A stretch of 26,411 bases of DNA from a virus. The stretch spans positions 1-26,411 of the IMG/VR virus record IMGVR_UViG_3300037169_000182. One strand, 5' to 3'. The notes under the pieces are model-generated. The model saw only the letters and a program-made list of their open reading frames with translations. It had not been told where the DNA came from and ran no database searches. Position 1 is the stretch's first letter. Each line of letters opens with the position of its first letter. Made by a program: the position numbers and the translations under genes. Below are positions 4,403-15,940 of this stretch, piece by piece.

Positions 4403-4864
4403 TTATATCCCCTTCAAGCGTGGTCCCAAGGTCGTCATGTCGATGCGCATCCCGATCACCCGCGCATGGGCTTGCGGCCGCGGCGCGGCATCCACTTGCG
4501 CCAGTGTTTGATCTGTTCGGCCGATAATTTGCCACTCACCGCCCACCTGTGCCTTGACCAGTTGCCCGGCCTCGTACGCCTTGAAGAACCGGGACCACTC
4601 TCGCTGCCAGCGCTCCGGCATCGGCGCAGCCTTACTTGGCGGCGGCCGGTCGCGCAAGCGGTGCTGCATGCGGGTCATGGTCGGAAACCACAGGAACACC
4701 TGGTTCTCCGTGGCGCCAATATACCGCGTTATGTCGCGCAGGCGCAAAATGGCATTGTGGGGGTTGTCCGGGGGTAATTCGCGGCGCAGGTGCGCCTCGC
4801 CCTCGCGCACCTGGCTCAAGCGTCGGGAGATCTCGGCGAGCGATAGGACATCAGGTGAGTCCAC
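4403..4864 (-). CDS. Hypothetical protein between terminase and portal (153 aa)
   Basis: This basic, mostly helical protein has a GTG start overlapping the terminase 3' end by 14 bases. The segment ITRYIGATENQVFLWF (about 45-60) looks like a helix-turn-helix recognition region, so DNA binding is possible; a small-terminase role cannot be excluded, but its position after the large subunit is not the usual one. No other motif is visible. Confidence 0.65.
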   Translation of the reverse strand: MDSPDVLSLAEISRRLSQVREGEAHLRRELPPDNPHNAILRLRDITRYIGATENQVFLWFPTMTRMQHRLRDRPPPSKAAPMPERWQREWSRFFKAYEAGQLVKAQVGGEWQIIGRTDQTLAQVDAAPRPQAHARVIGMRIDMTTLGPRLKGI

Positions 4865-6686
4865 GGACGTGGATTCCGTTTTTGGTCAGGTAGTTGATCA
4901 CCGATTTCTCGACCGGCGAGAAGGCCTTCGCCTCCTCGGCGCTGCGATTCTCGCGCGCCCAGGTGCGCTGGTTCGCCTGCATCTCCAGCATGATCCAGTC
5001 ATTCCAGGCCACCGTGGCGATCGCCAATGCGATCACGCGGTCATCCTTCGCCCGGCCCTCGCCGCCGATCTGGTCACCGTTGCGATGGATATTCCTGAAC
5101 TGCGTCAGGCACGCGGGCGAGTTCAGTTCGATGATCTCGCGCTCGAAGTAGCTGCGCAAGGTCGACATCATGCGGATTTTCTCGCGCGGGTTCGTCTGCC
5201 ACTGATACGCAAAGTTACCGTGAATGCTGTCTTGCTTTTTCCAGAGGTAATCACGTATCCGGCCAATAACGTCGAAGGCTCCAGCGCGAGGATCGCCTGG
5301 AGGGAGCGAAGCTGCTTGGCGTTTAAGATTGAGTAATTCATTGAACACCGCGGCGCCGGGCCCCTGCATCTCTAAGTTCAGCATGCAGTCGCCGTACCAG
5401 CCGCACAAGTGCGCGATGGCCCAGGCGAACTGTTGATCCGTCCAGTGGGGCGTGCCGAGCTCGGCCACCTGCACGATTTTATCGGCATAGCAGCGCAGCA
5501 TGCACGCGGCGAACTCATCCGCCCACTCGGAGGAGCCGTAGGCCGGATCGCAGCCCAAGGCATAGGAGCCGGCGCGATCGCCCGCTTTGGCGGCAAGCAC
5601 CGGGGTCTCCCAGATCGTGACCTCCGCGTTCTCCTCGGTTGTCTCGACGAACTGCGTGTCCTCGAAATTGAGGCCAAAGATATACCGGAAGTACAGGCAC
5701 GGCTCTTTCAGCGCACGTTGATACGCGATGTTGACGCGCTCGGCGGAGAAGAACTTCGAGCCGGATAGCTGAAACGCGTATTCCTCGGTCGGCGGCATCT
5801 CCTGAAGAGCCAACATCTCATCGCCCTTCATCTGCTCGGCAACGTACCAGCGCCACCAGGCGATTTGTTCCGGCGCGATCTCGACGCTGTAGCGCTCGTA
5901 AATCTCGCCGATCCACACGCGTTCGTCGCCCGTGGGGCTGCCGTCCCAATAGGTTTTGAACTCAGTCGACTCCGCCGGCCACGAATACAGTTCGTTGCGC
6001 CACCAGCCCACGAAGATGAATTTCTGCGTGTGGCTTTTCTTCGCAACCTCGCACGTCTGATAGAACATGTTGTAGCCGCGCGCGGTCGACTCATACACGT
6101 ACAGGCGATTCGGATTCTTCTGCGCGAGCGTGTTGGTCAACGACAGGAACCCTTCCTCATCGCCCCAGCTCGAGCACTCCGTTGCCAACAGGAAGTTCAC
6201 GTCCTTGGCCCGCCCCAGGCCGCCCGACTTCTTGGTGCCGGCCACCATGTACATGGCTCTTGAACGATTCTTCAATAAGAGCTGCGTGCGGTTGTGCCGC
6301 CCGATCGGCGCCTTCAAATGCTTCGGCAGCGATTGGATGTACTGGTCGACGTAGGAGCGGAACAACTCGCGGTTCTCGTCCGTGTCGGTGACCATCGCGC
6401 CCTTCAACCCTTTGTGCTTGAAAAGCCAATAGATGATCAGCGCGAGCAGCACCGTCGAGATGCCCAACTGGCGGCCCTTCAAGATCACGAAGGTGTGGAT
6501 GCCTTCGGCAATCCCCGCGGCAATCTCCTGCACCACATAGCGCTGCGTGCCTAAGAAGGTCAGCGGCATCTGCCCGAATTCCTTCGAATCGATTTTAAGC
6601 TCGCCGCAAAAGCGCTCGAAGCGCACCGGATCGAATTCGCGCCGCTCCGCCTCGGTCAGGACCGGGCGGATGATGAGGTCGGTCAC
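4851..6686 (-). CDS. terL: Terminase large subunit
   Basis: This is the ATP-driven DNA-packaging motor and headful/cos nuclease of the phage. The 611-residue protein shows a terminase Walker A, LKGRQLGIST (69-78), a Walker B VNFLLATE (163-170) and a coupling motif ESTARG (199-204). An RNase H-like nuclease domain follows, with candidate metal ligands D380 (GCDPAYG), E439 (LNLEMQGPG) and D549 (KDDRVIALAIA). It is full length for the family. Translation starts with GTG at 6686, overlapping the KTSC gene stop as GTGA. It heads the head-assembly genes on this strand. Confidence 0.97.
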   Translation of the reverse strand: MTDLIIRPVLTEAERREFDPVRFERFCGELKIDSKEFGQMPLTFLGTQRYVVQEIAAGIAEGIHTFVILKGRQLGISTVLLALIIYWLFKHKGLKGAMVTDTDENRELFRSYVDQYIQSLPKHLKAPIGRHNRTQLLLKNRSRAMYMVAGTKKSGGLGRAKDVNFLLATECSSWGDEEGFLSLTNTLAQKNPNRLYVYESTARGYNMFYQTCEVAKKSHTQKFIFVGWWRNELYSWPAESTEFKTYWDGSPTGDERVWIGEIYERYSVEIAPEQIAWWRWYVAEQMKGDEMLALQEMPPTEEYAFQLSGSKFFSAERVNIAYQRALKEPCLYFRYIFGLNFEDTQFVETTEENAEVTIWETPVLAAKAGDRAGSYALGCDPAYGSSEWADEFAACMLRCYADKIVQVAELGTPHWTDQQFAWAIAHLCGWYGDCMLNLEMQGPGAAVFNELLNLKRQAASLPPGDPRAGAFDVIGRIRDYLWKKQDSIHGNFAYQWQTNPREKIRMMSTLRSYFEREIIELNSPACLTQFRNIHRNGDQIGGEGRAKDDRVIALAIATVAWNDWIMLEMQANQRTWARENRSAEEAKAFSPVEKSVINYLTKNGIHVRGLT

Positions 6687-6913
6687 TTGAGCCGCGTGTG
6701 CTCGAACTTATCGACGATGTCGGAGGCAATGAACTTGCCCACGCTCGAGGCGCCGATCGCCGCCTCGTACACCTGTTGCGGCACCTCGTGGTAGGCGTAC
6801 ACGTGGCCTGAGCGAAACTCCACCTCCATCGTGCCGCTCGTGCCCGAACCATCGGTCGCCGCTTCCCAGCCGATGCCGGCGATATTCGAGGAGGAGACTG
6901 GGCGGCGGATCAT
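6683..6913 (-). CDS. KTSC-domain protein
   Basis: The 76-residue protein matches the small KTSC fold almost end to end: PVSSSNIAGIGWE (5-17), a TMEVEFRSGHVYAYHEVP strand pair (28-45), VYEAAI and the ASSVGKFIASDI segment (55-66). KTSC domains occur alone in phages and fused to lysyl-tRNA synthetase or helicases elsewhere; nucleic acid binding is suspected. The ATG at 6913 has a GGGAG site eight bases upstream and forms an ATGA overlap with the preceding gene; the stop overlaps terminase likewise. A longer frame to 6970 adds 19 residues that do not fit the domain. Confidence 0.85.
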   Translation of the reverse strand: MIRRPVSSSNIAGIGWEAATDGSGTSGTMEVEFRSGHVYAYHEVPQQVYEAAIGASSVGKFIASDIVDKFEHTRLK

Positions 6914-8092: not shown

Positions 8093-8365
8093 TCACGCCA
8101 CCCTCCAAATTCGTGTCCACCCGGGCCGCATGGCGCGCACCTTGAAGCGCAGCGCCTGATTCCCCCGCTGGCGCACCCGCCAGATGAATTGCGTCGTCGC
8201 CTTCAATGACCGGTTCACATCGAGCGCCTGGCCGCCCGGCTGCATCGCCAGCAACGCGTCGCCCAATGCCGCGTTGCGGCCAGGACGACCACGCGGTGCG
8301 GGCCCCGGTAGCGGCGCATCGACGTACTCGATGAGGATGGCGGTTGGACAGGTCGCGAGCGGCAT
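8093..8365 (-). CDS. Small conserved-type phage protein (90 aa)
   Basis: The C-terminal half is basic (FIWRVRQRGNQALRFKVR, then GWTRIWRVA) and resembles small phage proteins ending in a K/R-F-x-V-R ... R-I-W-R pattern. These are often encoded near regulatory regions; DNA binding is a guess. It is the first gene of the leftward packaging transcript after the noncoding region, with a promoter about 170 bases upstream. Confidence 0.65.
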   Translation of the reverse strand: MPLATCPTAILIEYVDAPLPGPAPRGRPGRNAALGDALLAMQPGGQALDVNRSLKATTQFIWRVRQRGNQALRFKVRAMRPGWTRIWRVA

Positions 8366-8406
8366 CTACTCGTTATACGCCATGTTAGGGAAAAGTAAAA
8401 TATTTT

Positions 8407-8432
8407 AGGGGTGGAGCGTGGGGGTCACCCCT
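8407..8432. repeat. Inverted repeat ahead of the packaging genes
   Basis: AGGGGTG (8407-8413) and CACCCCT (8426-8432) form a perfect 7-bp stem with a 12-base loop. On the minus strand it would lie in the 5' leader of the packaging transcript, followed by an AT-rich stretch. It may be a leader structure or an attenuator; the loop is G/C-rich and no clean uridine run follows. Confidence 0.35.
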
Positions 8433-8537
8433 CTAGACATCGCTGGACCCAAGGAATCCCTTAGAAATCGCATCGCAACACGACATAACGTGACTTTACA
8501 TAATGGCTATTATGCGAAGTACACGCGTAACCTATTG

Positions 8538-8565
8538 ATTATAATAGACTTAGTGTCTCTGTCAT
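8538..8565 (-). promoter_or_regulatory. Sigma70-like promoter for the leftward packaging genes
   Basis: On the minus strand a perfect TATAAT (8543 down to 8538) is preceded by a 16-base spacer and ATGACA (8565 to 8560), five of six matches to the -35 consensus. Transcription would start near 8531 and run into the 90-residue gene and the terminase operon. It is the best promoter match noticed in the window. Confidence 0.6.
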
Positions 8566-8670
8566 AACGCAAACACCGTAAATCATAGGGTTTTTGCATT
8601 ATGTCTCACTGGATTATGTCATGTTGCAGTGCGTATGTTACTGATCGGTACCACTAGCACACGAGTCTAG

Positions 8671-8686
8671 TGTTTCACGTGGAACA
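8671..8686. promoter_or_regulatory. parS: parS centromere site (exact match)
   Basis: The minus strand reads TGTTCCACGTGAAACA, identical to the classic Bacillus subtilis parS and to the widely shared bacterial chromosomal parS (two GTT-CACGTG-AAC half sites). ParB dimers bind this 16-mer and spread as CTP-dependent clamps. A 16-base exact match in about 26 kb is not expected by chance (order of one in 100,000 for both strands). A CACTAG/CTAGTG inverted repeat (8652-8657, 8667-8672) touches its left edge. No parA or parB gene is seen in the window, so any ParB would have to come from the host or from unseen parts of this genome. Confidence 0.85.
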
Positions 8687-8690
8687 CGGC

Positions 8691-8745
8691 TCTTCTGCAC
8701 AATCTTCTGCACAAAGTACGCACAAAGTACGCACAAACTGCACAA
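8691..8745. repeat. Iteron-like direct repeats
   Basis: Five adjacent units end in GCACAA: TCTTCTGCACAA twice (8691-8702, 8703-8714), AGTACGCACAA twice (8715-8725, 8726-8736) and ACTGCACAA (8737-8745). Period 11-12 puts the units on one face of the helix, like the iterons bound by replication initiators in plasmid and phage origins. They start four bases after parS and lie about 100 bases from the end of the RepA-like gene. Confidence 0.65.
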
Positions 8746-8816
8746 TTTACCCCCCTGCACCTGCGCACACTCTCTCTCCCCCTATGTATATAGGGGAGAG
8801 TGTGTGCAGTTTGTGC
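8731..8816. repeat. Large inverted repeat downstream of the RepA-like gene
   Basis: GCACAAACTGCACA (8731-8744) is the exact reverse complement of 8803-8816. Inside lies a second stem, CCCCTAT (8779-8785) with ATAGGGG (8790-8796), which can be extended by imperfect CT/AG pairing. The left arm overlaps the last iterons, so the right arm is an inverted iteron. It could extrude as a cruciform at an origin or act as a terminator for the RepA-like gene; no uridine tract follows. Confidence 0.6.
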
Positions 8817-8838
8817 AGTGGCTGAGCGTGTGCGTGAG

Positions 8839-10008
8839 TTACAGGACGACCAAACCGAAGCGCGGGTTGCGGTTTGAGTACTTACCGACGACGCCGCGTT
8901 TCAGGCGTCCTTCGCCCATGAGCCGGTTCATGGCCTGGGTGAGCTCCTTGCGGGTGTGCTGTTGAGCGAAGCCTTTCGCCATAATCTGTTTTGGCAGATA
9001 ATCGGGCGAGGTGGGGCCATCGGTGGCAAAGATCCCGACTTGGGTGAGCTTCATCAGCGCCTCGAGCACCACGCCGTCAGCGCGATCGAAACGGAACATT
9101 TCACTGACCGGGTTGCCGGAGTCGGTGATCTCCGGAATTAGGACACCATTGTCGAACTTGAGTTTTCGCCAATCCTTGGCGGTGTAGTTGGCTTTGCGCC
9201 GGGCGAGATACACCACATCGCTGTCAGCCGGCTCGTCCTCGGCGGTGATCTCCTGATCTGGCAACGTGGGGCCTACGTACCAGCGCATCCGCACGGCGTT
9301 CTCCCAGGCCGCGGCGCCGGCGAATTCTGAGCCGTGGGCGCGCGCGATGTGGCCAAGCATGACGGGCGCAAAGGGCCGGTCTCGCACCAGACCCGCCATG
9401 GCGTTGACGAAATAGGTCGCCTGATGGGCATCGTTCGCGTTGCCACCGAAGAGTTGCGCGAGATTATCCAGCACCAACACTTCGGCCTTCAAATCGTTGA
9501 CTTGTTCGCGCAGTTGCTCGAGCAGCGGCGTGAACACTGGCTTCCCAAAGGCGACATCCAACAGCGTGTTCTCGAGTCCCTGCCGCGGCACAATGCACAA
9601 ATTACCCAAACTCTCCATCGACAGCGTGAAATAGCGATTGATCGCGAGCTGCTGCCGCCACACTTCGTCGCGCGTCTCCTCGCACAGCCACATCAGCACT
9701 TTTAAGGGTTTGCACTGGGCCTCGAGATAGGGGCGTCCGGTCGCTAACGAGGTCGCAATGGTTTGCCACAGTCGCGTCTTTCCCGCGCCACCTGGCCCCG
9801 ACGTCAAGGTAGGCCACGGCCCTAACCAGTCCTGGATCCACCACGTGCGCGGCGGCGGCTCGCCCTCGAGGGTCGACCAGTCGAGCGGCGGCTCAAGCGG
9901 CGCGCGTTGCTTAGCTTCGGGCCCGCGCCAGTTCGCTTGCCGTTCATTCGCGTACGCCTCGAGCGGCGGCAGCTCCCCGCCGGTGGCATCTTGTTCAAGC
10001 GTCGGCAT
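8839..10008 (-). CDS. RepA-like hexameric helicase ATPase
   Basis: This 389-residue RecA-fold ATPase resembles the RSF1010 RepA/AAA_25 group of replicative helicases. It has Walker A GPGGAGKT (71-78), a WLCEETRDEV segment (107-116) like the catalytic Glu region of that family, Walker B EVLVLDNLAQLFGG (176-189), and the GHIARAHGSEFAGAAAWENAVR segment split over 219-240 that carries sensor and arginine-finger residues. The C-terminal 100 residues look like a winged-helix region with an ARRKANY entry. It would unwind phage DNA for replication. GAGG lies before the ATG at 10008. It borders the iteron region, which supports a replication role. Confidence 0.85.
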   Translation of the reverse strand: MPTLEQDATGGELPPLEAYANERQANWRGPEAKQRAPLEPPLDWSTLEGEPPPRTWWIQDWLGPWPTLTSGPGGAGKTRLWQTIATSLATGRPYLEAQCKPLKVLMWLCEETRDEVWRQQLAINRYFTLSMESLGNLCIVPRQGLENTLLDVAFGKPVFTPLLEQLREQVNDLKAEVLVLDNLAQLFGGNANDAHQATYFVNAMAGLVRDRPFAPVMLGHIARAHGSEFAGAAAWENAVRMRWYVGPTLPDQEITAEDEPADSDVVYLARRKANYTAKDWRKLKFDNGVLIPEITDSGNPVSEMFRFDRADGVVLEALMKLTQVGIFATDGPTSPDYLPKQIMAKGFAQQHTRKELTQAMNRLMGEGRLKRGVVGKYSNRNPRFGLVVL

Positions 10009-10147
10009 AAAACCTCGCTCGCTCGGGCGTGCTGGTGCGCCACTCCCGCCATTCCAACTCCTTGATCCATTGAATGGCGCGGCCGATGCTCACCATGTCG
10101 GCGAGCTCGGGATCGTTGTGCAGCGTGAATAATTCCTCATCGTTCAT
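9995..10147 (-). CDS. Small acidic protein (50 aa)
   Basis: The frame starts MNDEELFTLHNDPELADMV and ends in a helical Trp/Arg/Glu segment (WIKELEWREWRT). The ATG at 10147 overlaps the stop of the preceding HTH gene (ATGA), and its 3' end overlaps the RepA-like start by 14 bases. Such coupling supports expression. No domain is recognised; a partner or loader for the ATPase is possible but unsupported. Confidence 0.6.
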   Translation of the reverse strand: MNDEELFTLHNDPELADMVSIGRAIQWIKELEWREWRTSTPERARFYADA

Positions 10148-10329
10148 GGCTGCGCCACGATGCGCCGCACCTGCTCGACCGACAGGCCGGTAAGCTCCGC
10201 AACGTGGGCGTCGGTCTGATGGCTTTGAATGAGCCGCTTTACCGCTTGGGCTTGCTCCTCCGTGTTGAGCAAATGGAAATAGCGCAAATGCGCGCCCGTG
10301 GGGGCCTTCTGGGCTCGGTACCGCTTCAT
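10144..10329 (-). CDS. Small helix-turn-helix protein (61 aa)
   Basis: The C-terminal half, DAHVAELTGLSVEQVRRIV (41-59), has the spacing of a helix-turn-helix of the kind found in resolvases and sigma-like regulators. The N-terminus is basic. It lies directly behind the 83-residue regulator gene and ahead of the replication ATPase, consistent with a DNA-binding accessory of replication or control. The exact role is not known. Confidence 0.65.
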   Translation of the reverse strand: MKRYRAQKAPTGAHLRYFHLLNTEEQAQAVKRLIQSHQTDAHVAELTGLSVEQVRRIVAQP

Positions 10330-10331
10330 GG

Positions 10332-10583
10332 CTACGGCCGATCCATCCAGCCCGGCTCCAACCCTAGGTTCTGCTCGATACTGCGCGCTAGCTTTTCACC
10401 CATGGCGCGCTTAGGATGATCGCCGCCCAACACCAGCAAAAAGTGGGGCGCCTTGCCGGTCCAACGGGCGAGCTCTTCCCACGAACCAGCCGTTTCTTTG
10501 CAAAAGTTCAGATTCTTGACCCGGGCGCGCTGCACCGCTTCCAGTGCTTTGTTAGCCGCCGCTCGATCGCGTTTGGTTCGCAT
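10332..10583 (-). CDS. Phage repressor-type HTH regulator (83 aa)
   Basis: The C-terminal part, SWEELARWTGKAPHFLLVLGG followed by AMGEKLARSIEQNLGL and GWMDRP, matches the DNA-binding domain of lambda/P22-type repressors, where a helix-turn-helix is followed by KLARxIEQxLGLxxGWMD. Full-length repressors carry a cleavable peptidase domain afterwards; here the protein stops at GWMDRP, so it may be Cro-like or a short repressor. It is transcribed away from 10621, with overlapping divergent promoters between. Confidence 0.75.
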   Translation of the reverse strand: MRTKRDRAAANKALEAVQRARVKNLNFCKETAGSWEELARWTGKAPHFLLVLGGDHPKRAMGEKLARSIEQNLGLEPGWMDRP

Positions 10584-10584
10584 A

Positions 10585-10621
10585 TTGACTTTACCCTAAG
10601 TGGTCAGCGATGATAACAATA
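10585..10621. promoter_or_regulatory. Divergent promoter and possible operator
   Basis: On the plus strand TTGACT (10585-10590), an 18-base spacer and GATGAT (10609-10614) would start transcription at about the A of the ATG at 10621, giving a leaderless message. On the minus strand TTATCA (10616-10611), 17 bases and TAAAGT (10593-10588) would start transcription at about 10582 and serve the HTH gene. ACTT-TACCCT-AAGT symmetry lies between and could be an operator for the neighbouring regulator. All matches are partial. Confidence 0.4.
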
Positions 10622-11001
10622 TGACAGAGCCAAAAGCGAGCGGCGAAGCGCTGAAAGAATACGCCGACAAATTTCTGACCGCGCTTGCTCGCATTGCAGC
10701 AGCCATCGAAGGGAATCGAACCTATGATGCGGTGCGCGGCGCGCCTTCTCAGGATCCCCCTCCACCACCACCACCACCACCGATGATGCAGCCGACGGTG
10801 GCAGTGGCCGTTGACGTTACGCCAGCAACGGCGCACGCCATTACCTACGACCAAATCAGCGCCGCCGTGATGAAGTACTCCGACCGCTTCGGTCACGAGG
10901 CCGGCAAGGCGCTGGTCAAGCGATTCGGCGCGACCTACATCAAAATGATCAAGGTCGAGGACTACCCGGCGGTGCTGGCTGCGATCGAGGCGGGGCCGTG
11001 A
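10621..11001 (+). CDS. Small phage protein with polyproline linker (126 aa)
   Basis: An N-terminal helix is followed by a run of nine prolines (about 45-53) and a C-terminal helical domain (about 75-126) with YDQISAAVMKYSDRFGHEAG and VEDYPAVLAAIEA. This C-terminal pattern is common in phage early proteins of unknown role, often next to recombination genes. I use the ATG at 10621; a GTG at 10600 in frame would add seven residues. Its stop overlaps the next gene (GTGA). Confidence 0.7.
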   Translation: MTEPKASGEALKEYADKFLTALARIAAAIEGNRTYDAVRGAPSQDPPPPPPPPPMMQPTVAVAVDVTPATAHAITYDQISAAVMKYSDRFGHEAGKALVKRFGATYIKMIKVEDYPAVLAAIEAGP

Positions 11002-11801
11002 CGTTTCTGAGCGCGGCGGCGGTCTCGCGCTGGCTCGTCTGCGGCGGATCCGCGGCGCTCGAGGAGACCGAAGCGGCGCCGGCGGAGCGCATCTTGGAAG
11101 CGCTGCCGATCGTCGCCGAACGCAAGGCGGCCCTAGAGGCGCAGGGCGCCGCGGTGCAGGCAGCGCTGGGTGTCCGCGTCGATATCGGCATCATCACCGG
11201 TGAGCGCGGCGCCACAGCGATTATCCAAGGGCTCCTGATCGCTGAGTGGGAAGATCACAGCCGCGTGGAAGTGCACGGGCACGAGCTCGTCGAGGCCCAG
11301 CTGCTGACCCTGGCCGCCCTCATCAAGTACAGCCTGCTGCACAACTTCACCGAGACCAGCGTGGGCAGCGTCGAGGAGTTGTACGCGGTTGGCCAGCGGA
11401 TGACCGAGGCGGCCGCTCTGGCGCTCTCGCTGCGCGGCGATGTGAGCGCGCTCTCGCACCTCACCGAGGGGCCGCAATGCAGCGCGTGCAGCGCCGCCTA
11501 TCGCTGCCCACAACTCTCCAAGGGCGTGTTCGAGGATGTCTTCGGCGAGATCCAGGCGCCCGACGACGTGCACTTGCAGCCGGTGCTGCCGCGCGTGCGG
11601 GTGGGGCCGCCTGAGGATCTACCAGCGCTCATTGCCGCGGCGCTCGAACGTATCCCGATGATTGAGGACTGGTGCGCCTCGGTGCGCGATCACGCCGTGC
11701 TGTTGGGGCTCATTCCCCGAGCAGCCACCGTACCCCGTGTAAAACGACAACGCAAAAAGCGAAGAAAATACACCAAGCGAGCAAAGACGTCGCCACCGTA
11801 A
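10998..11801 (+). CDS. DUF2800-like Fe-S nuclease relative, possibly inactive
   Basis: This 267-residue protein begins like DUF2800 phage proteins, which are RecB/AddB-type nucleases: LSAAAVSRWLVCGGSAAL with C15, later C161, C164 and C170 (CSACSAAYRC). That is the four-cysteine Fe-S pattern flanking the nuclease core. The later PMIEDWCASVRDHAV segment also matches. However, no clear catalytic D...ExK group is visible in the middle (about 55-115), where the family has one, so it may be a binding protein rather than a nuclease. A very basic tail (about 247-267) suggests DNA contact. The GTG start overlaps the previous stop. Confidence 0.6.
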   Translation: MTFLSAAAVSRWLVCGGSAALEETEAAPAERILEALPIVAERKAALEAQGAAVQAALGVRVDIGIITGERGATAIIQGLLIAEWEDHSRVEVHGHELVEAQLLTLAALIKYSLLHNFTETSVGSVEELYAVGQRMTEAAALALSLRGDVSALSHLTEGPQCSACSAAYRCPQLSKGVFEDVFGEIQAPDDVHLQPVLPRVRVGPPEDLPALIAAALERIPMIEDWCASVRDHAVLLGLIPRAATVPRVKRQRKKRRKYTKRAKTSPP

Positions 11802-11815
11802 GTCCGATAATTGTT

Positions 11816-11841
11816 CGCCGCCATGGGTGGAAATGGCGGCG
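11816..11841. terminator. Hairpin between convergent genes
   Basis: CGCCGCCAT (11816-11824) and ATGGCGGCG (11833-11841) form a perfect 9-bp GC-rich stem with an 8-base loop, exactly in the gap between two convergent stop codons (11801 and 11844). The position fits a bidirectional terminator. There is no uridine tract on either side, so it may need Rho or only stabilise 3' ends. Confidence 0.5.
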
Positions 11842-11843
11842 GC

Positions 11844-12158
11844 TCATCGGCCGGCGATCCGCTGACGCACACTTTGCACGTGGTTCATGACGTCCTCGCG
11901 CGTGCGGACCGTGCGTACTGGGCTGCCGCGCCATTGAGCGATAAAGGTGCGCTGCGGCGGTGTGTAATCACCATCCTCAGTTTTGAACTCGACCAGCTCC
12001 GTCGCGCCCACCAACCCGACCACACAATCGGGGAAGCCAAAACCCAGCGCGTGAGTATCGACTGTCGTGCAGCCTAGGTCGCGGTAGAGCTTCATCAACT
12101 CGGCGGCGTTCTCATCAGGCGCGCCCAACGCGGAGCGGTATTTGTCGCGGGCGGCCAT
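11844..12158 (-). CDS. VRR-NUC-like PD-(D/E)XK nuclease
   Basis: This 104-residue protein has the core of small virus-type nucleases: LGFGFPDCVVGL with P43-D44, TELVEFKT with E57 and K59, followed by TPPQRTFIAQW (Q69). This matches the VRR-NUC/Holliday junction resolvase-like PD-(D/E)XK fold, which cleaves branched or flapped DNA. The ATG at 12158 overlaps the upstream regulator stop by one base (TGATG). It is encoded with the regulator on the opposite strand to the recombination operon. Confidence 0.8.
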   Translation of the reverse strand: MAARDKYRSALGAPDENAAELMKLYRDLGCTTVDTHALGFGFPDCVVGLVGATELVEFKTEDGDYTPPQRTFIAQWRGSPVRTVRTREDVMNHVQSVRQRIAGR

Positions 12159-12346
12159 CACTTATTGCGCCGCACATAGACCACCAGCCGCTCAAGCCCC
12201 AGCGCTTTTAAAATCTTGTCGCCGGGCTTCTTGCGATCATTCAGCACGTCAGACAGGTATTGCGGGCTGATCTTAAGCTCGCGCGCAACTTCCGCGTTGG
12301 AACTGCCCTCTACCCGCTCTCGTAATTCGCTGATTGGATTCGCCAT
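12158..12346 (-). CDS. XRE-family regulator (62 aa)
   Basis: The segment SSNAEVARELKISPQYLSDV (17-36) followed by LNDRKKPGDKILKALGL is a typical Cro/C1 helix-turn-helix. The start at 12346 (MANPISEL) gives a complete domain; an upstream extension to 12442 would run through the divergent promoter. It is transcribed opposite to the early operon and probably binds the region 12347-12427 to control it, like Cro or a C2-type repressor. The binding site is inferred. Confidence 0.82.
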   Translation of the reverse strand: MANPISELRERVEGSSNAEVARELKISPQYLSDVLNDRKKPGDKILKALGLERLVVYVRRNK

Positions 12347-12392
12347 AGTGCACACGCTATCACATAAAATATCGAACGTACACAAAATAGAG

Positions 12393-12421
12393 TTGACAGA
12401 CGCTGATTTGCGTATTACGGT
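12393..12421 (+). promoter_or_regulatory. Early operon promoter, apparently leaderless
   Basis: A perfect TTGACA (12393-12398) is followed by a 17-base spacer and TACGGT (12416-12421). The start of transcription would fall at about 12428, the A of the next ATG, so the message would have no leader. The XRE gene diverges from here, which fits a regulated phage early promoter. Confidence 0.55.
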
Positions 12422-12427
12422 GGCAAC

Positions 12428-12601
12428 ATGAATCATCCGCACCGAACCCGCCTCGATTACCTCATCGCCCGGTTGAAGGCCAACGCCGGTAACCGCGATG
12501 TGCTCATCGCAGAAATCGTCAAAGCCTATAATTCACGCCCTGCGCGGCGTGCGAGCGATGCCCGCGTCAAGGGCTGGCATTATGTTGAACCAATTTATTA
12601 A
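12428..12601 (+). CDS. Small basic protein, first gene of the early operon (57 aa)
   Basis: The frame reads MNHPHRTRLDYLIARLKANA and continues to a TAA at 12599-12601. It is helical and basic, with GNRDVLIAEIVKAYN resembling a small DNA-binding helix pair, then an Arg-rich stretch and WHYVEPIY. No Shine-Dalgarno is visible, in line with the leaderless promoter. It faces the XRE gene, so a Cro-like or antirepressor partner role is possible; no family is recognised. Confidence 0.6.
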   Translation: MNHPHRTRLDYLIARLKANAGNRDVLIAEIVKAYNSRPARRASDARVKGWHYVEPIY

Positions 12602-12621
12602 ACCAAGGTAAGGAGTCTCTG

Positions 12622-12900
12622 ATGAGTGAAAAAGTTGTAAGTGGGCCCTGGGTTATCGGGCAAAACTATCTGATTCGCACGGTCACGATGATCGACACGG
12701 GCCGCGTGACCGCGGTGTATGAGCATGAGATCGTGCTTGAGGATGCTGCGTGGATCGCCGATACCGGCCGGTTTCAGGATGCGCTCAAGATGTGCGAGTT
12801 TTCTGAGGTCGAGATGTTTCCGGTGGGCCCCGTTATTCTGGGCCGGGGGTCCATCATCGATGCGGTACCCATCACCACACTGCCCGCGAAGCAAAAATAG
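12622..12900 (+). CDS. Conserved-type phage protein (92 aa)
   Basis: AAGGTAAGGAG lies before the ATG at 12622. The protein starts MSEKVVSGPWVIGQNYLIRT, continues with VYEHEIVLEDAAWIADTGRFQDAL, and ends in a GRGSIIDAVPI strand. This GPW...G-NY-IRTVTM...EIVLEDAAWIADTGRF pattern is one I know from hypothetical proteins of proteobacterial phages; the function is unknown. It ends with TAG, seven bases before the first repeat cassette. Confidence 0.8.
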   Translation: MSEKVVSGPWVIGQNYLIRTVTMIDTGRVTAVYEHEIVLEDAAWIADTGRFQDALKMCEFSEVEMFPVGPVILGRGSIIDAVPITTLPAKQK

Positions 12901-12907
12901 GGTCGCC

Positions 12908-13271
<364 letters not shown>

Positions 13272-13275
<4 letters not shown>

Positions 13276-13346
13276 ACGCCTGCGTGGCCTATGCAGGATG
13301 GTCGCGGTCGTGGTCGTGGTCGCGGTCGCGGTCGCGGCCCCTATGA
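13272..13346 (+). CDS. Repeat cassette reading frame 3, shortened (24 aa)
   Basis: The leader is MNACVAYAG and only seven hexamers follow; the end is CCCCTATGA instead of TCGCCATGA, so the frame ends RPL. The TGA overlaps the ATG of the following ordinary gene at 13343, which itself starts ATGAACGCC. It looks like a deletion product of a longer cassette. Confidence 0.35.
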
Positions 13347-13657
13347 ACGCCGCAAGCTTGCAGAGCGCGGTCGCTCTTCTCGGCGCGACCGCGCTCCAAA
13401 TCAAAGCAGAGCGCGACGCCATGGCTGCTGTGCTCCTGGCCATCGATGAGCTGTGGCGCGAGAATCACCCGAACGGCCCTGGTGACCCCAATCCGTACGT
13501 GCGTATGTCAGCCGACAAGCGAATGATCTGGAGTGACCTGCGGGCCGCCCTCTCCGCGGCCGGTGTGCCACTGTATTCCGAGAGGCTGCCAGAATCCGCA
13601 GACACCAACGCTCTTCGCGACGAACTCATTTCCATCATCCGGAGTCAATGCCCTTGA
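13343..13657 (+). CDS. Hypothetical helical protein (104 aa)
   Basis: After MNAASLQSAVALLGATALQ the protein is helical with a conserved-looking WRENHPNGPGDPNPYV turn (about 38-53) and an acidic C-terminus. No domain recognised. Its start forms an ATGA overlap with repeat cassette 3, and its first nine bases equal the cassette leader. Ordinary codon use from about position 13350 on marks it as a genuine gene next to the array. Confidence 0.65.
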   Translation: MNAASLQSAVALLGATALQIKAERDAMAAVLLAIDELWRENHPNGPGDPNPYVRMSADKRMIWSDLRAALSAAGVPLYSERLPESADTNALRDELISIIRSQCP

Positions 13658-13842
13658 AAATCGCTCTAATCGTTGTCTTCTTTCTGTGCGCCCTTGTGGT
13701 CGTCTTCATCCTCGCGTTCGGGATCTACTGCGCGAAGTGCTCGTACATGGAATGGCGCGAACGCCGTGACATGCACATCCGCAACAAGAACATCAACCGT
13801 TACAACATGGGTGCCTTTCGCGGCACCAAGGACAGGTTCTGA
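13648..13842 (+). CDS. Small membrane protein (64 aa)
   Basis: Residues about 4-28 (KIALIVVFFLCALVVVFILA and on) form one hydrophobic membrane segment, followed by a charged, basic tail (MEWRERRDMHIRNKN). GGAG lies nine bases before the ATG at 13648. It overlaps the preceding gene by ten bases and the following by one. The topology is probably N-out or N-in single span; the role is unknown, possibly superinfection exclusion or host membrane interaction. Confidence 0.65.
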   Translation: MPLKIALIVVFFLCALVVVFILAFGIYCAKCSYMEWRERRDMHIRNKNINRYNMGAFRGTKDRF

Positions 13843-14159
13843 TGAAAATCGCACTGTATAAGGCAGTCGGCGGTGGTTACTTCATGGTGTGGGACGTGAG
13901 CATGGGCGGCGGGAGCGGCATCGTTGAAGGCTACGTCCGCACCAGCGAATGGATCGACGTGGAATTCTCGCCGCGTGAGAGCAAGGAGTCGATCGCGGAA
14001 GAGGTGCACCAACTCGACGTGAAGGCGGACGAGATACGCGCCACCATGGGCCGCCAGCTCATCGCGATCGAGACCGCGAAAGCGAACCTGCTCGCGATCA
14101 GCGATCAGCGCAGCAGCGTGGCCGAAGAGGTCGAGGGCCCGAACGAGTACGTGCCATGA
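13842..14159 (+). CDS. Hypothetical early protein with C-terminal coiled coil (105 aa)
   Basis: An N-terminal beta-rich part (YKAVGGGYFMVWDVSMGGG; GYVRTSEWIDVEF) is followed by a long helix (about 45-95) of coiled-coil character. The ATG overlaps the previous stop (TGATG) and the TGA overlaps the ATG of repeat cassette 4. The IALYK...V...EGYVRTSEWIDVEF pattern is typical of small phage hypothetical proteins. Confidence 0.68.
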   Translation: MKIALYKAVGGGYFMVWDVSMGGGSGIVEGYVRTSEWIDVEFSPRESKESIAEEVHQLDVKADEIRATMGRQLIAIETAKANLLAISDQRSSVAEEVEGPNEYVP

Positions 14160-14341
14160 ACGCCTGCGTGGCCTTTGCAGGATGGTCGTGGTCGCGGTCG
14201 CGGTCGCGGTCGGGGTCGTGGTCGCGGTCGTGGTCGCGGTCGCGGTCGTGGTCGCGGTCGGGGTCGTGGTCGTGGTCGCGGTCGTGGTCGGGGTGGTCGC
14301 GGTCGTGGTCGCGGTCGGGGTCGTGGTCGTGGTCGCCATGA
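14156..14341 (+). CDS. Repeat cassette reading frame 4 ((W/R/G)-Ser repeat, 61 aa)
   Basis: Same leader as copies 1 and 2 (MNACVAFAG), then 26 hexamer units with the shared SWSGWSRSWSRS block, ending in SP and an ATGA overlap with the next gene. It lies about 800 bases from the other three, between two ordinary genes. The downstream gene begins with the same 14 bases (ATGAACGCCTGCGT) as the cassette, so the cassette is flanked by a direct repeat of that gene's start. Confidence 0.45.
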   Translation: MNACVAFAGWSWSRSRSRSGSWSRSWSRSRSWSRSGSWSWSRSWSGWSRSWSRSGSWSWSP

Positions 14342-14607: not shown

Positions 14608-15425
14608 CCACCGCCGACCAGTACCACGCCGATCCTGCGCCCACAGCGTCGCTCTCATCGAGCATCGCGAACATCCTGCTCACCGAGTCGCCAAAGCACG
14701 CATGGCTCGCGCATCCACGGCTGAATCCCAAATACGTGCGCGAGACCGATTCGCGCTTCGACCTGGGGTCCGCCGCGCACATGATGCTGCTGGAACGGCG
14801 CTCAGATGCGATCGTGCGCGTCGCGGCGGACGATTGGCGCACGAAAGCCGCAAAAGAAGCGCGCGACGCCGCGCAGGCCGAAGGCAAATACGCCGTACTT
14901 GAGCGCCAGTATGATGACATCGTGGCGATGTGCACGGTGGCCCGCGAGTTCGTCGCTGCAAGTGAGTTGGGCGACATCCTTGTCACGGGCGAACCCGAGC
15001 AGACCCTCATCTGGCAGGAGGGCGTGACGCACTTTCGCTGCCGCCCGGACATGCTGTCCCAGGACCGGCGCGTCGTGCTCGACTATAAGTCGACGGGCAG
15101 CGCATCGCCCGAAGCGTTCTCGAAGCAGATCGGCCGCATGAACTACGATCTGCAGGCGGAGTTCTATGTGCGTGGCATCGAGGCGGCGACAGGTATCGCG
15201 CCCGTATTCGTGTTCTTGGCGCAGGAAATCACGCCGCCCTACGCGTGCTCCCTGACGTCGCTGTCGAATGCCTACCGCGCCATCGGCCAAGCGAAGGTTC
15301 AGCACGCTCGGTCGATCTGGGAGCGCTGCATGCGCGATAACGACTGGCCGGCGTACGACAATCAGATCCACTACGTCGAGCCGCCGCCATGGCAGTTGAA
15401 CGAATTAGAGCGGGATTTACTGTGA
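14604..15425 (+). CDS. RecB/exonuclease VIII-like PD-(D/E)XK exonuclease
   Basis: This 273-residue protein follows the phage PDDEXK exonuclease plan: FDLGSAAHMMLLE (52-64) with the His of the first helix, a central HFRCRPDM (143-150) with D149, VVLDYKST (157-164) with D160 and K162, and YDLQAEFYVRG (181-191) with the motif-III Gln. Such enzymes resect double-strand ends for single-strand annealing by a phage recombinase. GGAG precedes the ATG. The next functional gene is a Sak4-like ATPase, separated by an HNH gene that overlaps this one by four bases. Confidence 0.88.
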   Translation: MTTADQYHADPAPTASLSSSIANILLTESPKHAWLAHPRLNPKYVRETDSRFDLGSAAHMMLLERRSDAIVRVAADDWRTKAAKEARDAAQAEGKYAVLERQYDDIVAMCTVAREFVAASELGDILVTGEPEQTLIWQEGVTHFRCRPDMLSQDRRVVLDYKSTGSASPEAFSKQIGRMNYDLQAEFYVRGIEAATGIAPVFVFLAQEITPPYACSLTSLSNAYRAIGQAKVQHARSIWERCMRDNDWPAYDNQIHYVEPPPWQLNELERDLL

Positions 15426-15940
15426 GCCGGCGCACTCATTTCGTGTGCACTGTCGACGGATGTGGACTGCCGCATGACGCGAAGGGCCTTTGCCACTCTC
15501 ATTACAAACGATGGAAACTTCACGGCGATCCATTGGTGGTAAAAGCTGTTCCGCGTGGCAGCGCCCGCATAGACAAGCGTTCCGGGTATCGGATTTTTAA
15601 CAAGACTCCTGAGCATAGGCAGGTAGCAGAAAAGGCTCTGGGCCACCCTTTGCCTCCTGGCGCGATCATTCACCACGCTGATGAAGACAGGAAAAATAAT
15701 GATCCCAGCAACTTGGTAGTTTGCCCGGACAACAAATATCACCGCCTGATACATCAGAGGCTAAATTCTTTCAAAGCAAGTGGACACTACGACTGGAGGA
15801 AATGCCCATATTGCAAGCGCTACGATGATCCTGAAAACATGAAGAAAGAAAGGACGGGGTACGAACCTCGCTTCGTTCACGCGCTGTGTAGAAACTTGCT
15901 ACAAAAAACCATGCGGAACACACGCCATGTTTCAGTTTAA
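15422..15940 (+). CDS. HNH endonuclease with zinc-finger N-terminus
   Basis: I start it at GTG 15422, which overlaps the exonuclease stop (GTGA); an ATG at 15389 is possible. The 172 residues show a zinc module, CTVDGCG and KGLCHSHYKRW (C9, C14, C24), then the HNH core HRQVAEKALGHPLPPGAIIHH (split at 65-85), DPSNLVVC (94-101) and YHRLIHQR (106-113), and a C-terminal CPYC pair. It has lower GC than the genes around it and overlaps the ATPase start by 14 bases. It sits between two cooperating recombination genes like a mobile homing gene. Confidence 0.88.
   Translation: MSRRTHFVCTVDGCGLPHDAKGLCHSHYKRWKLHGDPLVVKAVPRGSARIDKRSGYRIFNKTPEHRQVAEKALGHPLPPGAIIHHADEDRKNNDPSNLVVCPDNKYHRLIHQRLNSFKASGHYDWRKCPYCKRYDDPENMKKERTGYEPRFVHALCRNLLQKTMRNTRHVSV

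Follow-up and report, generated by a model that had tools for sequence, protein, structure and literature searches.

A host-type parS site beside a dif-like site and RepA-associated iterons in a tailed-phage control region: probable use of host segregation machinery

The window, meaning the whole stretch of 26,411 nucleotides analysed here (positions 1 to 26,411 of IMG/VR virus record IMGVR_UViG_3300037169_000182), holds part of the genome of a tailed phage. Read along the minus strand, a RepA-like AAA_25 ATPase/helicase gene (8839–10008; PF13481, E = 3.6e-25) is followed by a long hairpin and TTTGTGC iterons, a parS site, a dif-like site, a conserved block, small genes that include a metallopeptidase, the terminase, and the portal. 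The terminase large subunit (4851–6686, minus strand) serves as the family marker; a small HTH regulator is also encoded. parS lies in a noncoding gap of 473 bp (8366–8838), flanked by small genes upstream of the terminase on one side and by the RepA-like gene on the other, with a GC content of 0.47 versus 0.61 for the window. Elsewhere in the window are long (TGGTCG)n hexamer arrays (12935–13337 and 14183–14336), several copies of which have shared flanks and for which blastn found no counterpart in L123, a 75% relative, and HNH-type endonuclease genes at 79–651 (PF13392) and 15389–15940 (the latter recognized by eye from its translation).

The parS site, a predicted docking site for host ParB, occupies 8671–8686, reads TGTTTCACGTGGAACA on the plus strand and TGTTCCACGTGAAACA on the minus strand, and matches the 16-bp chromosomal-type consensus TGTTYCACGTGRAACA exactly. 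From base composition, 1.2e-5 exact matches to any of the four standard parS forms would be expected in the window; no second place lies within three mismatches of parS, and dinucleotide shuffles gave a mean of 0.13 such matches. A first-pass annotation had described an exact parS on the minus strand, in noncoding DNA between replication and packaging genes and four bases from iteron-like repeats, and each of these statements was borne out: the 12-bp repeat TCTTCTGCACAA begins at just that distance. It occurs at 8691–8702 and 8703–8714, and GCACAA repeats run on to about 8745, so that the iteron-like stretch (TTTGTGC / GCACAAAGTAC; 8691–8745, minus strand) adjoins parS. The end of the RepA-like gene lies just upstream of hairpin and iterons. 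The hairpin is at 8762–8808 on the minus strand (z = -4.05 for the whole 179-nt stretch), and a similar hairpin, as well as comparable repeats after the RepA-like gene, is present in the relatives L123–L127 and L156.

About 150 bp from parS, in the same gap, lies a feature that the first-pass annotation did not record: a 28-bp dif-like XerCD site, ACTTCGCATAA-TAGCCA-TTATGTAAAGT (8493–8520, minus strand), identified by pattern match and conservation. The pattern, itself partly drawn from this phage family, has one zero-mismatch match in the window and none in 100 shuffles. The arms of the phage site differ by one base from ACGTCGCATAA-NNNNNN-TTATGTAAAGT. An independent check of the pattern drew 398 genomes from the phylum to which the betaproteobacterial MAG G134 belongs: at a tolerance of one mismatch to the pattern, 30 of the 398 held a single such site per genome, ACGTCGCATAATGNATATTATGTAAAGT, and none matched the reversed control, as would be expected of a chromosomal dif. 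The site is kept in the same gap of L145, L146, L147/L149/L150/L152, and L151. Beside it stands a conserved block of about 70 bp (8397–8465, minus strand; AAGG(G/A)ATTCCTTGGG...GGTGACCCCCAC), 78–80% identical in L143, L145, L147, L149, L150, and L152, which is a possible accessory site. In this phage family the site has several central hexamers (TAGCCA, TCGTTA, TAACCA, TCGCTA), and TAGCCA of the window phage differs from the host-type hexamers TGGATA, TGTATA, and TGAATA; recombination or resolution between phage copies therefore appears at least as likely as integration at a chromosomal dif.

Scanning of terminase relatives and RepA relatives traced how far parS extends through the family. Four loci (L122, L141, L142, and L158) represent the same phage as the window or nearly so. 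Three others with a terminase 73–74% identical (L147, L149, and L152) carry CGTTCCACGTGGAACC, the exact 14-bp parS core, in the same gap, 2,108 bases before the terminase start as against 1,999 in the window phage. L156, with a RepA only 38% identical, has the one-mismatch core AGCTCCACGTGGAACA immediately after TGTGCGG iterons; in L145 and L129 an exact core falls within a predicted gene, outside the gap. The site is not absent from all related phages: the exact core was present in 5 of the 33 relative loci of the control test, in three independent lineages, and 300 permuted palindromes gave a mean of 0.01 and a maximum of 1. In P. aeruginosa, a variant two mismatches off TGTTCCACGTGGAACM was insufficient (PMC5098823), so parS specificity varies. 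parS was not found in L143, L151, L154, L155, or L159. L123 (RepA 75% identical) keeps the iterons and lacks parS in its gap, its one-mismatch core lying within a Cas4-like gene; in L151 the dif-like site is present and parS is not; several relatives have neither. The site is therefore not obligatory, and the pattern reads as one in which parS is kept or regained among relatives, though not in every member.

No gene for a partition protein was found with the site. Six-frame searches of the window with ParB_N (PF02195) and ParA-type AAA_31 (PF13614) gave no match, in agreement with the first-pass annotation, and longer relatives (35–40 kb) were likewise blank, among them those of 37.7, 38.2, and 40.2 kb; PF13614 was found in none of 18 records, and the same search matched 14 of 14 control genomes. 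Since the window covers a fragment of 26.4 kb, and the relatives with a strong dif-like site are contigs of 6–24 kb, absent genes could lie in unsequenced parts. At the left end, near-identical DNA reaches 2.1 kb farther, into a gene that is capsid-like by place and translation (judged by eye), so the missing part of the genome looks structural. A terminase scan of genome contigs for a prophage or host returned only five distant MAG contigs (46–47% relatives), and the phage and plasmid collections held only distant RepA and terminase relatives.

Integrases show a distribution of their own. No PF00589 tyrosine integrase was matched in the 26.4-kb window, in L143, or in any strong-dif contig searched, all of them partial, and matches were obtained in L123, L156, L124, L126, and L128. 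In L123 and L156 the integrase is present and a strong dif absent, and the L123 integrase maps, by neighboring alignment, near 17–18 kb of the window, where the window phage has a DNA methylase. These few partial contigs suggest that dif and integrase may replace each other. L156 combines a near-parS with an integrase, and parS is accordingly not tied to an integrase-free life. L123 (about 9170–9230), L156 (about 8290–8360), and L151 have AATAGACC(G/A)GCCTATTA in common, and L123 and L156 also share ATCCATATGGATCAAAGGA, where the window has other DNA; this is a possible integrase attachment region.

Beyond this family, the exact parS 16-mer is widespread in viral contigs: at least 120 stretches carry it, as compared with 1 carrying the reversed pattern and 7 carrying a control sequence in which CACGTG and composition were preserved. 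The commonest families among the longest ORFs of the listed parS-bearing contigs are terminases and portals. ParB_N (E <= 0.001) was found in 5 of the 97 parS-bearing viral records tested and in none of the other 92, a count that underestimates ParB where records are fragmentary, as many are, though most long records lack it too. Sites within predicted ORFs make up 77 of the 134 listed (57%), versus a mean coding fraction of 0.85, and the coding copies read as VPRET, VSRGT, FHVKH, FHVEH, or FTWN, that is, in five frame and strand combinations; because of both, the distribution speaks for parS being selected as DNA rather than as peptide. The pairing of parS with dif is another matter. Among dif-bearing viral contigs, one of 120 dif loci had parS, an 8.4-kb contig that agrees in size and site position with L141 of this phage, and dif was absent from all listed loci of the exact-parS search; the pair is therefore special to this phage family, not a general association.

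Two arrangements among the parS-bearing contigs may be recorded separately. L045, a GC-rich phage contig of 116.7 kb, has 11 exact parS copies in 5 kb (8906–13878), its only isolate match being 102 bp of Streptomyces phage Yara; L008 has two exact copies head to tail without a spacer (6863–6894), with TGTTTCACGTGAAACA roughly 0.2 kb upstream. Neither Streptomyces phage Yara nor phage DSL-LC04, the isolates nearest L045 and L012, respectively, has parS within two mismatches.

An isolated phage with a known host offers the closest comparison. Bacillus phage phi29 is virulent, with a small linear protein-primed genome; it reportedly uses host Spo0J, on which its entry into spores is said to depend. 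Its genome (EU771092) has four exact parS sites in 19.3 kb and no ParB_N, and sites are present as well in its relatives Goe1, B103, Goe6, BSP11, and Chedec 11, the first of which (Bacillus phage Goe1) is L011 among the parS-bearing contigs. The likeness to the window phage is direct: the identical 16-mer without a ParB_N of the phage's own, so that host ParB would be the user; in the window fragment, as in the longer relatives, an exact host-type parS likewise stands without phage ParB. The two differ in that phi29 is linear with several sites and spore entry, whereas the window phage has one site, beside RepA/iterons and dif, and no link to sporulation. Capture of host parS by phages is thus a phenomenon of known kind, and probably much more widespread than has been described.

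What, then, might the site do? The phage probably relies on the segregation machinery of its host for keeping and positioning phage DNA. In the fuller scheme, to which we give roughly an even chance, parS is functional: host ParB would load on it once the phage genome is inside the cell, CTP clamps of ParB would spread into the flanking DNA, and loaded ParB would recruit host ParA and/or SMC, so that a circular extrachromosomal phage genome, whether prophage or pre-lytic, would be segregated and placed, and multimers would be resolved by host XerCD acting on the dif-like site. The likeliest role is to segregate or place a circular genome because parS stands beside RepA/iterons and a dif-like site, with neither ParAB nor integrase seen. 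ParB binding and a circular or episomal state are what we infer, as is the outcome; the sequences, their recurrence in relatives, and the lack of ParB and ParA in the longer relatives are what was seen. A further argument comes from P. aeruginosa, in which a parS must lie within about 650 kb around oriC to serve segregation (PMC5098823): since integration at dif would put the phage copy in the terminus, and so in the wrong place, the extrachromosomal state may be the one to expect.

Several other accounts bear on the same observations. Host ParB might tether the DNA near the host origin or pole for replication, protection, or carriage into daughter cells during a purely lytic or delayed infection, with no stable episome, a phi29-like placement. 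Virulent phi29 with its four sites and no ParB_N, the sites kept by its relatives, and the ordinary tailed phages that terminase and portal genes reveal among other parS-bearing contigs all point that way; the company that parS keeps here, with RepA/iterons and a dif-like site, is instead of plasmid or prophage type, and the phage has a small HTH regulator; such placement seems unlikely, if a serious contender. A regulatory site is rather improbable: spreading ParB clamps, acting as KorB does, would repress RepA, early or late promoters, or adjust origin firing. parS has the iterons on one side and the late operon on the other, so that spreading would reach both, and silencing over distance by KorB clamps is established for RK2 (PMC11790492), but the sites of relatives lie at differing places, some inside genes (L145, L123, and L129), unlike a fixed operator.

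The remaining accounts fare worse. That the cognate ParB is encoded in an unsequenced part of the phage gains something from the fragmentary window and from the few parS-bearing viral records that do have ParB_N; the blank searches of the 37.7-, 38.2-, and 40.2-kb relatives and the extension of the left end into a capsid-like gene make it very improbable. The same low standing belongs to a decoy role, in which the site would titrate host ParB and upset segregation in the host, since one site per genome would soak up little of a clamp protein that is abundant. Chance, or a functionless relic of captured host DNA, is the least probable account: parS is indeed missing from the gap of L123 and of several others, but the negligible number of matches expected in the window and the recurrence in independent relatives, set against the control mean, speak against it. 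The first-pass annotation had suggested that the phage may recruit host ParB, leaving partition, placement, and titration as options. Its core, a host-type parS without phage ParB, is strengthened by recurrence, over-representation in viruses, relatives devoid of ParB and ParA, and phi29; among the options, RepA/iterons and the predicted dif-like site favor partition or placement over titration.

Comparison with known elements helps to delimit what is new. Phage-plasmids with their own ParABS (P1, N15, and some mycobacteriophages) resemble the window phage in that a centromere of parS type lies close to a Rep gene and a circular prophage is presumed to be partitioned; they differ in that neither parA nor parB was found in the window or the longer relatives and that the site of the window phage is the one used by host chromosomes and not a centromere private to the phage. 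The 28-bp dif-like site that marks an IMEX or Xer-dependent element is present in the window phage, which shares with IMEX elements and plasmid Xer sites (CTXphi/VGJphi/TLCphi, cer, and psi) a dif-like XerCD site with no integrase seen. The IMEX phages named in a review are, however, vibriophages, among them CTXphi and VGJphi, which are filamentous (PMC5357621), whereas the window phage is tailed and its TAGCCA hexamer departs from the host type. The literature found links no IMEX phage or plasmid Xer site to parS, and a search of open-licence papers returned nothing on phages using host parS. New here is that a tailed phage in which no integrase was seen combines parS, dif, and RepA/iterons within a single control region; neither parS, dif, and RepA in one control region nor a spread over unrelated phages was found described in open-licence papers.

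More broadly, and tentatively, some tailed phages could be regarded as chromosome mimics that hand over to the host both the centromere (parS, served by host ParB/ParA/SMC) and dimer resolution or integration (dif, served by host XerCD) and keep only their own initiator, host-parS capture without ParB being a general strategy of unrelated phages and phi29 one case. If this is true, ParB/parS would be a docking point shared by many phages, beyond its chromosomal use, so that ParABS and SMC would bear on where phages are placed and how they are inherited, and a mini-replicon made up of RepA, iterons, parS, and dif would need host ParB and XerCD for its stability. Searches for parS in metagenomes, meanwhile, will match phages.
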